A DNA stretch of 36,328 bases from a virus. The notes beneath the pieces are model-generated. The model searched no databases. It was given only the letters and a program-made list of their open reading frames with translations, and was not told the DNA's origin. This document shows positions 17,393-19,567 of the stretch, in pieces (position 1 is the stretch's first letter; each line of letters begins with the position of its first letter). Position numbers and translations under genes: made by a program. The DNA is taken from the IMG/VR virus record IMGVR_UViG_3300013126_000105, positions 1 to 36,328 of that record; one strand, written 5' to 3'.

Positions 17393-18238
17393 ATGGCTAC
17401 TAAAACATTTGTTAGTGATGGAACAGCACACCGTGAAGCAAAAAGCATTTGGGTCAGTGACGGCACAATCTGGCGGGACATCAAGCGCGCTTGGGTCAGT
17501 GACGGCACAGCCTGGCGGCTAGTGTTTGTTAAAACAATCAATTTAGTTATATCATCTAACACACAGAACTACAACATTTTAACCGCTGCCCAAGCTCTGT
17601 ACGGCACGATAACAACACCTGTTAACATTAATCTAACAGTTAATTCTAGTGTGATTGTCGGATCATCATATACAGTATCTGGCGTCAACCAGAATAAAGT
17701 GCAATCAGTGGCATCACCTGCAATGGTCAGTGGCACATTCCCCGCTGGGTCAACGTTGACCATAACTGTCAACTCGGGGGCATACATTGTTGGAGCAGGC
17801 GGACAGGGTGGATCATATGGCACGCCAACAAGTGGTGCAAGAGGAACCCGTTGGGCAGGTGGTGATGCATTATCTGTATCTCTTCCAACAACCATATACA
17901 ATTATGGAACAATTGCGGGTGGCGGCGGTGGAGGCGCTGGCGGTGATGGAGCAGGCGACAACTCTGTGGCTGGTGGCGGTGGTGCAGGTTACCCGGGCGG
18001 CCAAGGTGGGTTTGGATACGGATGTGGTACCTGGGGCGCAAATGGAACACTAACAGTAGGTGGTAACGGCAGTTGTCAAAGTATATACCCAGCCAAGGGT
18101 GGCAATTTGGGAGTAGCTGGCCAATACGGCGGGAACTTCTATAGCACTGGCGTTGTCGGTCAACCTGGTGCGTATATTGTGGGCGCAAGCAATGTCACAT
18201 GGGCTGCGGCTGGTACACGACTAGGGGTAGCAGTATGA
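17393..18238 (+). CDS. Gly-rich receptor-binding adhesin-like protein, paralogue of the gene at 3741
   Basis: This 281-residue protein starts with repeats of the type WVSDGTIWRDIKRAWVSDG, common in phage tail-tip proteins. A beta domain (about 45-130) is followed by Gly-rich blocks (about 131-255; GAGGQGGSYG, AGGGGGGAGGDGAGD, GGGGAGYPGGQGGFGYG) and the C-terminal SNVTWAAAGTRLGVAV, which also closes the gene at 3741. The loops between the Gly blocks differ between the two copies, as expected for host-range determinants. Its stop overlaps the next start as ATGA. Confidence 0.64.
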   Translation: MATKTFVSDGTAHREAKSIWVSDGTIWRDIKRAWVSDGTAWRLVFVKTINLVISSNTQNYNILTAAQALYGTITTPVNINLTVNSSVIVGSSYTVSGVNQNKVQSVASPAMVSGTFPAGSTLTITVNSGAYIVGAGGQGGSYGTPTSGARGTRWAGGDALSVSLPTTIYNYGTIAGGGGGGAGGDGAGDNSVAGGGGAGYPGGQGGFGYGCGTWGANGTLTVGGNGSCQSIYPAKGGNLGVAGQYGGNFYSTGVVGQPGAYIVGASNVTWAAAGTRLGVAV

Positions 18239-18414
18239 ACGAATATCAATTTATTAGAGATGATGATGGTATAATCAGAAGTGTGCAGCACATACCAACA
18301 GCATCGGTTATTTTCTTTATGGATTTGGTTACAGATCAACCAAATACATCACTAGAATATGAAGCATATCGTGAATGGTTGCTACAAGGCAACACGCCTG
18401 CGTATCCAGATTAA
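18235..18414 (+). CDS. Small tail-fibre accessory protein
   Basis: This 59-residue protein starts at ATG 18235 in an ATGA overlap with the Gly-rich gene. Its end, YEAYREWLLQGNTPAYPD, follows the YxxWLxxGNTPxPxD pattern found in small proteins encoded after phage fibre genes. It may help fold or attach the adhesin, which is inference from position. It is the last gene of the second tail module; the regulatory gap before gp32 follows. Confidence 0.55.
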   Translation: MNEYQFIRDDDGIIRSVQHIPTASVIFFMDLVTDQPNTSLEYEAYREWLLQGNTPAYPD

Positions 18415-18430
18415 TGGTCAGCCACCAAAG

Positions 18431-18459
18431 TTGACACATAAATAAGAATATGGGATAAT
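18431..18459 (+). promoter_or_regulatory. Distal sigma70-like promoter of gp32 with embedded late box
   Basis: TTGACA (18431-18436) and GATAAT (18454-18459) are separated by 17 bases. CATAAATA (18437-18444), a late-type box, lies inside the spacer, so this site could be read by both early and late RNA polymerase. Transcripts would carry the structured leader at 18482-18526. Confidence 0.6.
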
Positions 18460-18477
18460 ATCTTCGGGTGTTATCCC
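18452..18477 (+). terminator. 11-bp hairpin with cUUCGg tetraloop
   Basis: GGGATAATATC and GGTGTTATCCC pair over all 11 positions (two G-U pairs) around a UUCG loop closed by C-G, an exceptionally stable tetraloop common in T4 RNA hairpins. No U-run follows. It overlaps the -10 box of the distal promoter, so only read-through RNA from the tail genes contains it in full. Likely a 3'-end or terminator of the tail transcript. Confidence 0.65.
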
Positions 18478-18481
18478 AGAT

Positions 18482-18526
18482 AGAGGCTGAGAGGCAGCCT
18501 AAATTTAGGGTAATTCCTAAACCTCT
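18482..18526 (+). promoter_or_regulatory. Possible RNA pseudoknot upstream of gp32
   Basis: AGGCTG (18484-18489) pairs with CAGCCT (18495-18500). The 5-base loop AGAGG (18490-18494) is fully complementary to CCTCT (18522-18526), which allows an H-type pseudoknot. Between them TTTAGG/CCTAAA (18504-18509/18516-18521) forms a second hairpin. Alternatively CCTCT can pair with AGAGG at 18482-18486. An AU-rich, apparently unstructured stretch runs from here to the gp32 start. T4 gp32 represses its own mRNA from such a pseudoknot; the same role here is inference. Confidence 0.45.
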
Positions 18527-18527
18527 G

Positions 18528-18556
18528 TTGTATTATTTTTAGACAAGCAGTATAAT
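18528..18556 (+). promoter_or_regulatory. Proximal sigma70-like promoter of gp32
   Basis: TTGTAT (18528-18533), a 17-base spacer and TATAAT (18551-18556). Transcripts would begin near 18563, omit the possible pseudoknot, and have a short AU-rich leader with AGGAGA before the start. Confidence 0.65.
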
Positions 18557-18601
18557 AATTGAAGTATTAGACAAATCAGACAATCATTAGGAGAAAATAT
18601 T

Positions 18602-19567
18602 ATGTCAAAAATGTCCCTAGCAGCACTAAAAGGTGCTTTCAGCAACGAACAAACCCCACGCGAAGGCGGTTCCAGCAATAACAACTACTACCCATTCTGG
18701 GATATGCAAGTCGGTCAACGAGCAGTAATCCGATTTCTGCCTGATCTTAACGAAAACAATCCTCGTGGCTTTCTCGTTGAACGCGTATCTCACAATCTTG
18801 AGGTTAATGGTCAACGCCGTACTGTCCCCTGCCTGAGCATGTATGAAGAAGACTGCCCAGTCTGTAAGGTCAGCCAAGACTATTACAAGGCAAAGGATGA
18901 CGTGAACGGTAAGAAGTATTGGCGCAAGCGTCAGTACATTGCACAAGCAATCATCGTTGAAGATCCACTGCCAGCAAACGAAGAAACTGGTAGTAACTAC
19001 GAAGGTCAAGTTAAGGCAATCAGCCTGGGCTTCCAAATTTACAACATCATCAAGGAAGCATTCGGTTCTGATGAACTGGAAGCGATTCCATACGACTTCT
19101 CTGAAGGGTATGACTTCATCATCAAGAAGACAGAGCAAGGTCAATATGCATCATATGCTGTTGGTACTAAGTTTGCCAACAAGCAACGCGCTCTGACAGA
19201 TGAAGAACTGGCTGCAGCAGAAGAAGGTATGATCGATCTTGCAACCCTGCTCCCAGCAAATCCTGGTGAAGAACGTGTTCGTCAAATGTTGAATGCCGAC
19301 CTCAATGGTGAAGAACTGGAAGAAGGTTCTGGTCGTCCTTCCCGTAAGGCAAAGAATGATGACGATGATGAAGAATTCGTCCCAAAGAAGCCAGCAGCCA
19401 AGCCAGCCAAGGTTGTTGATGAAGACGAGGAAGAAGACGAAGCTCCTGCTCCAAAGAAGGCAGCACCAGCAGCCAAGCCAGCTCCAAAGGCAGCCGCTAG
19501 TGAAGATGATGACGCATCAGTTGATGACATGCTCGCAGCCATTCGTGCTCGTCGAGCAGGCAAGTAA
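18602..19567 (+). CDS. 32: Single-stranded DNA-binding protein gp32
   Basis: The T4-type gp32 coats single-stranded DNA and organises replication and recombination proteins. This 321-residue protein has the zinc site at the T4 positions: His64 and Cys77 (H-x12-C), then Cys85 and Cys88 (CPVC). The OB-fold core runs to about residue 215. The C-terminal part (240-321) is Asp/Glu-rich with Lys/Ala/Pro linkers, ending in DDMLAAIRARRAGK; in T4 the acidic tail recruits partner proteins. The tail is longer than in T4. AGGAGA precedes ATG 18602. Two promoters and a possible autoregulatory RNA lie upstream; uvsX follows. Confidence 0.95.
   Translation: MSKMSLAALKGAFSNEQTPREGGSSNNNYYPFWDMQVGQRAVIRFLPDLNENNPRGFLVERVSHNLEVNGQRRTVPCLSMYEEDCPVCKVSQDYYKAKDDVNGKKYWRKRQYIAQAIIVEDPLPANEETGSNYEGQVKAISLGFQIYNIIKEAFGSDELEAIPYDFSEGYDFIIKKTEQGQYASYAVGTKFANKQRALTDEELAAAEEGMIDLATLLPANPGEERVRQMLNADLNGEELEEGSGRPSRKAKNDDDDEEFVPKKPAAKPAKVVDEDEEEDEAPAPKKAAPAAKPAPKAAASEDDDASVDDMLAAIRARRAGK

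Follow-up and report, generated by a model that had tools for sequence, protein, structure and literature searches.

The leader of the gp32-like gene in the 36-kb virus record analysed here (36,328 nt in all, called the window) contains a predicted three-stemmed H-type pseudoknot, and comparison with related phages shows that this fold is conserved by compensatory change and that its position 5' of gp32 is conserved as well. By analogy with T4, we consider it probable that the leader is an autogenous translational operator, in which gp32 would nucleate on the pseudoknot, spread, and repress translation.

The gp32 gene of the window and its leader

The protein encoded at 18602-19567 matched PF08804 (E 9e-12) and phrog_1192 (E 1.5e-43) in profile searches, and H64, C77, C85 and C88 show no variation either in the protein's own alignment or in 11 relatives; in T4 gp32, residues like these hold zinc. 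The next gene encodes a UvsX-like recombinase, and a UvsW-like helicase is encoded further on. The named phages that encode the best relatives of the protein have genomes of 285-490 kb; among them is XacN1, a Xanthomonas phage (44% identity), which also has adjacent ssb and RecA-like genes. Just 5' of the ssb leader lies a gene for a Gp38-like tail fibre adhesin (17393-18238; PF05268, E 7.2e-9), and in L001 a glycine-rich reading frame is also present at this place. The elements that the initial annotation had named in front of gp32 were all found in the sequence, and the features of the region are as follows.

18431-18459, plus strand: distal sigma70-like promoter, TTGACA (18431-18436), 17 nt, GATAAT (18454-18459), with TG before the -10; 11/12 matches
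18437-18444, plus strand: T4-type late promoter box CATAAATA, in the distal sigma70 spacer; expected start ~18450
18451-18478, plus strand: P0, a 12-bp hairpin with a C(UUCG)G tetraloop, where late transcripts are expected to begin; z -5.65
18484-18489, plus strand: S1 5' strand, AGGCUG (DNA AGGCTG)
18490-18494, plus strand: S1 loop AGAGG, which is the S2 5' strand, complementary to CCTCT at 18522-18526
18495-18500, plus strand: S1 3' strand, CAGCCU (DNA CAGCCT)
18504-18521, plus strand: S3 hairpin UUUAGGG-UAAU-UCCUAAA, 7 bp (18504-18510 with 18515-18521), directly 5' of the S2 3' strand
18522-18526, plus strand: S2 3' strand, CCUCU (DNA CCTCT), pairing with the S1 loop
18527-18601, plus strand: unstructured, A/U-rich leader that contains UUAGACAA-like repeats and the Shine-Dalgarno AGGAG (18589-18593)
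18528-18556, plus strand: proximal sigma70-like promoter, TTGTAT (18528-18533), 17 nt, TATAAT (18551-18556); 9/12 matches, weak -35
18602-19567, plus strand: gene for the gp32-like single-stranded DNA-binding protein, 321 aa with an acidic C-terminal tail

The S3 hairpin, between S1 and the CCTCT strand, was absent from the earlier description, which was also silent on the near-invariant A as the first loop base and counted 11 bp in the cUUCGg hairpin, where we find 12.

Relatives of the leader

When IMG/VR was scanned with three aligned gp32 proteins, 68 loci were found, which together with the window made 69 rows; removing five whose leader was missing or whose start was mis-set (L149, L159, L177, L186, L195) and nine identical leaders left 55. 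Over the first 240 residues the relatives' gp32 proteins are ~50-87% identical to that of the window. Thirty curated rows were picked by eye, and pair counts were made on 26 of them after L171, L174 and L180 were dropped for loop or arm length together with one duplicate; the gp32 tree omitted L191, L209 and L211. A further set came from 29 loci on new contigs, from which eight identical leaders and one that was too short were removed, leaving 20; L250, L289 and L300, whose matches start at or near a contig end, lie outside it. An exact search of IMG/VR for GGCTGAGAGGCAGCC gave 21 loci, of which only the known relative is of this kind; at least 120 stretches match the pattern of late box, AGAGG and CCTCT, and a DNA-level search of named phages gave no match. 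Two loci of the further set, L303 and L304, lie on contigs binned as Thaumarchaeota and Heimdallarchaeota MAGs and encode relatives of these phages' gp32, and L303 carries the pseudoknot (ACAGG/CCTGT); both are probably misbinned phage contigs.

Compensatory changes in the pseudoknot

In distant relatives the loop-tail helix differs in sequence and keeps its pairing, with more than ten distinct loop-tail sequences. Examples of loop and tail partners are AGAGG/CCTCT in the window, AGACG/CGTCT in L154, AAGGG/CCCTT in L164 and L172, ACGGG/CCCGT in L162, ACAGG/CCTGT in L167, AAGGC/GCCTT in L168, ACACG/CGTGT in L173, AAGAG/CTCTT in L176, ACAAG/CTTGT in L190, and ACGAG/CTCGT in L191. To quantify the pairing, we defined a descriptor that requires an S1 of at least 6 pairs, a loop of 5, and complementarity of the entire loop to a 5-mer 7-35 nt downstream. 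It was present in 18 of the 55 leaders, compared with a mean of 0.92 and a maximum of 4 in 100 rounds of dinucleotide shuffling, a test that was not blind, as the descriptor had been tightened after a loose version separated poorly. That version (loops of 5-8, any 5-mer, gap to 70) was rejected, since it matched 42/55 leaders and also 19-27/55 shuffled ones. With the descriptor frozen, 11 of the 20 further distinct leaders matched (200 shuffles: mean 0.19, largest 2), a frequency that is biased upward because all 11 query proteins came from fold-bearing phages, whereas its contrast with the shuffles is unbiased. These leaders brought the new partners AAGGA/TCCTT, ATGGG/CCCAT, TGGAG/CTCCA, AGAAG/CTTCT and ATAGG/CCTAT, and some of them are near members of the first set (L239 is 86.8% like L163). 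When hairpins were picked blind to S2, the loop complement was found downstream in 18 of 51 (permuted loops: mean 3.15, largest 10, 2000 rounds), and in 11 of 41 when each distinct loop was used once (mean 2.0, largest 8, 5000 rounds). The descriptor is also specific to the gp32 leader, with 18 matches in 10.6 kb of leaders; 528 kb of other sequence from these loci gave 53, a rate ~17 times lower.

The pair counts describe how the fold varies. They were made on a hand-set alignment, because MAFFT misaligned the S1 arms and the tails, and because the tails were chosen by pairing the counts are a description and not a proof, the fair tests being those with the descriptor, the frozen descriptor and the blind hairpins. 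Among the 26 distinct members, 96.5% of the cells are paired (S1 97.4%, S2 95.4%), and all 11 pairs of S1 and S2, including all 6 of S1, show changes on both sides somewhere. The covariation score is 0.920, whereas shuffles give 0.214 and slid partners no more than 0.22. Sliding the partner by 1-3 columns lowers the pairing to 36-52%. There are 21 G-U cells and 2 A-C cells, an excess that points to RNA of mRNA sense. On the gp32 tree the fold is scattered, with 11 changes needed, and supported clades mix S2 types (GAGGT in L160, AAGGG in L172 and AAGAG in L176; AAGAG in L181 and AAGGG in L163), as does the window's own clade (AGAGG in L151, AGACG in L154), implying that S2 changed repeatedly. 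The H-type candidate AGGCTG/CAGCCT, with its AGAGG loop matching CCTCT, is thus placed well beyond chance by covariation, and the pairing of AGAGG with CCTCT passes the check across related phages that had been proposed for it.

Anatomy of the family and its exceptions

Of the 30 curated members, 28 have A as the first loop base, the opposite base being U in 23/27, and S2 pairs 2-5 are variable. Most simply, S2 has 4 bp and loop 1 a single nucleotide, or S2 has 5 bp and there is no loop 1; in the window, A18490 is probably either that loop nucleotide or part of a terminal A-U pair. Compared with pseudoknots that combine a one-nucleotide loop 1 with 6-7 bp, one loop nucleotide across an S2 of 4-5 bp is tight. 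In many members an A-rich stretch and then S3 lie between S1 and the S2 3' strand, and S3 ends 0-2 nt 5' of that strand in 24/30 (shuffled mean 4.7, largest 10). S3 is missing from six members (L158, L162, L166, L168, L171, L187), in which the loop at this place is short and mostly A-rich; S2 contains a mismatch in L152 and L153 and is limited to 4 pairs in L150 and L156. A pairing between TCCTAA of S3 and the Shine-Dalgarno TTAGGA was rejected as a general feature, being possible in the window and not in L001, and so was attenuation, no terminator-like site having been found within 18200-18700.

About 25 of the 55 first-set leaders are without this fold, and inspection found no such knot in L155, L178, L193, L002, L183-L185 and others. 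Likewise, none of the 12 named-phage leaders tested shows this kind of pseudoknot; A/U-rich or G-U matches in L216 and L223 were taken as chance. Some of the first-set and named-phage leaders without the fold belong to gp32 relatives at 40-50% identity. In all these leaders autoregulation would be absent or achieved by other means. The L155 leader (upstream of L155:2501) has about six tandem TAGATAATTT-like words and a hairpin loop AAAGG without a partner; it may be an operator in which repeats take the place of a knot. In the related leaders of L002, L178 and L193, AACCCTTGA is retained at the position expected for the S2 3' strand, with no matching upstream loop seen. Most of the knotless gp32 leaders of L220-L224 (RaK2, Munch, XaC1, XbC2, SNUABM_19) have ACAAAGAAACAAA-like words 5' of the Shine-Dalgarno.

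Promoters around the pseudoknot

The late box that had been placed inside one promoter spacer is present as CATAAATA in the distal spacer, and the T4 spacing rule puts the late start at ~18450. The window holds 10 copies of YATAAATA versus 2.66 expected, with 7 of the 9 plus-strand copies intergenic, and the octamer occurs in 56 of 75 gp32 leaders (shuffled mean 3.4), a late box lying upstream of S1 in 25/30 curated members. With TATAAATA-like octamers found between genes on the coding strand, T4-type late promoters are likely throughout the window. We also noticed intergenic CATAAATA or TATAAATA boxes at 2135, 4605, 12300, 12916, 25058 and 30320, each 23-85 nt 5' of the next start.

Both of the sigma70-like promoters that had been annotated can be read in the sequence (11/12 and 9/12), with neither singly beyond chance. 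The distal one alone is at chance level, as 18200-18700 has 1 such site versus a shuffled mean of 1.7; its place is kept in L148 (TTGACT-17-GATTAT) and L152/L153 (TTGACT-18-TATGAT), and no sigma70-like site of at least 9/12 was found upstream of the knot in L150, L151, L154, L156 and L169. A promoter scan of 18200-18700 did not list the proximal site, from which transcription would start at ~18563 and give an RNA that lacks the pseudoknot. The place of this site was followed in the window's clade, clade A, which consists of 9 tree rows (100/98 support) and L276, L288 and L292 (70-73% identical to L151, outside the tree); omitting L153 as a near-copy left 11 phages. In 7 of these, a sigma70-like promoter of at least 9/12 starts at the knot end, versus a mean of 0.46 in shuffles, or 1.19 with the first 14 nt kept, and never 7 in 500. 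The layout is therefore conserved better than chance in clade A, and the element is a putative promoter. Outside clade A, a sigma70-like -10 ends 2-14 nt 5' of S1 in most members (24-25 nt in L163 and L180), which would place the knot at the 5' end of that RNA or close to it. Since most other relatives have their sigma70 promoter 5' of the knot, the two-mode layout would be a feature of one clade and not of the family.

The initial annotation had suggested a two-mode control with an unregulated proximal and a regulated distal message. In clade A, promoter choice might set the mode, with an early or middle message from the post-knot promoter escaping autoregulation and late or read-through messages carrying the operator, a reading that we regard as a serious possibility without favouring it. 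The 7/11 matches at the knot end and the five relatives without a sigma70 site upstream of the knot lend it some support. However, the control set of other members is also above shuffles (6/20 versus a mean of 0.67 or 1.28), by weaker matches at scattered places with mostly poor -35 boxes, and TGA comes after the tail in the control set as well as in clade A, which means that the -35 may partly be RNA sequence. Moreover, L154, L156 and L276 are without a site of at least 9/12 at the proximal place, L148 scores 8/12 there, and the window's own -35 is weak. We also noticed a GTGAAC...GTTCAC-type hairpin near the expected start of the proximal promoter in L151, L152, L154 and L169, with which the proximal RNA would also begin with a hairpin.

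The P0 hairpin and the unstructured leader

The stretch from the expected late start to S1, where P0 lies in the window, is hairpin-prone in relatives as well (mean z -2.46, with 13 below -2, among 24 leaders that have a late box and room), and P0 may shield the 5' end of the late RNA. On this basis the structures could chiefly protect the mRNA 5' end from decay, with translation not autoregulated: hairpin-prone stretches recur at the expected late start, and the window's P0 has a very stable cUUCGg loop. Stabilisation of this kind may well apply to P0, but as an account of the whole leader it is unlikely, since a plain hairpin would suffice and the compensatory upkeep of S2 and S3 is left unexplained.

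The leader 3' of the knot had been described as AU-rich and unstructured, and in the window this holds: 195 of 200 shuffles of 18527-18601 fold as well or better. In general, the stretches 3' of the knot fold weakly (mean -0.067 kcal/mol per nt), but as a set they are no less folded than their own shuffles (mean z -0.57); those of L150, L154, L156 and L167 are not unstructured. ATTAGA occurs in 15 of 28 leaders versus 2.6 in shuffles, and AGAAGYGAA words are also found in relatives' leaders. A general 10-nt leader period, an idea taken from L155, was rejected, as only lags 5 and 6 were above shuffles.

Proposed mechanism of autoregulation

The gp32 proteins of T4 and RB69 bind to a 5' pseudoknot and then occupy the unstructured leader, with its repeats, and cover the ribosome site; in T4 both the pseudoknot and the unstructured leader are needed (PMC535899, PMC3014915). 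From these two phages we infer gp32 binding, spreading and repression in the leader studied here, and we likewise infer the use of each promoter. The three-stemmed pseudoknot, with S1, S2 and the in-line hairpin S3, would be the nucleation site, to which gp32 in excess of free ssDNA would bind; the bound gp32 would spread cooperatively over the unstructured A/U-rich leader and cover the Shine-Dalgarno, and ribosomes would be blocked. In clade A, the knot would be carried by transcripts that start 5' of it, from the late box or, where a member has one, from a distal sigma70-like promoter, while the promoter just 3' of the knot would give messages without it. The overall interpretation in the initial annotation stands in that the knot covaries, precedes a gp32-family gene and is followed by a T4-like unstructured leader; repression is the part that is carried over from T4 and RB69.

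The knot might instead be bound by another host or phage factor or by a small molecule, as in a riboswitch of preQ1-like shape, which would control gp32 translation in trans. Small riboswitches also have an H-type pseudoknot with an A-rich third loop, and the L3 base counts here fit that description. We nevertheless find this quite unlikely, because almost no unpaired position is conserved except the loop A, while a ligand pocket would need a conserved core, because no Rfam riboswitch family matches, and because the element is tied to a gene whose T4 relative binds such a knot. That the fold works as structured single-stranded DNA, for example as a replication start, as was once considered for STAXI, would suit a neighbouring gene whose product binds ssDNA, but is very improbable given that the excess of G-U over A-C cells (21 versus 2) favours RNA of the coding sense and that the place after the promoters and before the Shine-Dalgarno fits a leader. 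A chance inverted repeat with a 5-base match can be dismissed: nine other places in the window fit a loose geometric descriptor, yet only the one in the gp32 leader has S3, and the covariation in the frozen test set (11/20 versus 0.19) excludes it.

Returning to autogenous control by gp32, the material as a whole suggests a wider picture, tentative and rather doubtful in its full extent, of widespread, fast-evolving three-stemmed gp32 operators in uncultured phages outside the T4 group, with a host-type promoter moved to the 3' edge of the knot in one clade. If this is true, the timing of transcription would decide whether a message carries the feedback operator, leaving expression open early and self-limited late. 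A knot with the topology of the T4 knot and other dimensions is kept by compensatory mutation in front of divergent gp32 genes. The dozens of natural variants make it possible to ask whether gp32 recognises shape or sequence, and the family supplies matched loop and tail pairs for direct rescue tests.

Comparison with known systems

A literature search that lay mostly outside subscription journals returned no report of such a gp32 element beyond the T4 group, and according to the review PMC3014915 the T4-type knot may be the only example in viruses. No Rfam family reached its gathering score in the window, where no STAXI match was found either. STAXI is the nearest motif in kind, yet it is different: PMC2864571 describes it as a pseudoknot that often has UUCG tetraloops and is found close to genes for single-stranded DNA-binding proteins. 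It comes in two or three tandem copies and accompanies genes of several kinds, whereas the element here is in single copy. Three-stemmed H-type pseudoknots, a term used in PMC11262651, share the extra stem-loop embedded in the pseudoknot, but are known as riboswitches and frameshift signals, while here the fold stands 5' of a gp32 gene.

The closest system is the gene 32 operator of T4, T2 and RB69, with which the element shares the kind of gene, a gp32-family gene, that it precedes. Following the published T2 knot, we read the T4 leader as S1 UGCC/GGUA, an A as loop 1, and S2 GCUAUGA/UCAUAGC. The H-type topology is the same, loop 1 being a single A and S2 directly abutting S1, and so is the unstructured short-repeat leader reaching the Shine-Dalgarno, which is found in the window though not in L150, L154, L156 and L167. 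In contrast, S1 has 6-11 pairs and S2 4-5 here, compared with ~4 and 7 in T4; loop 3 has 5-29 nt, usually with a third hairpin, compared with ~5 nt and none; and the repeats are UUAGACAA in the window and ATTAGA and AGAAGYGAA in relatives, not UUAAA/UAAA. There is no recognisable sequence homology to the T4 pseudoknot. We think that the element is a T4-like gp32 operator, which has either diverged too far for its sequence to be recognised or evolved independently.
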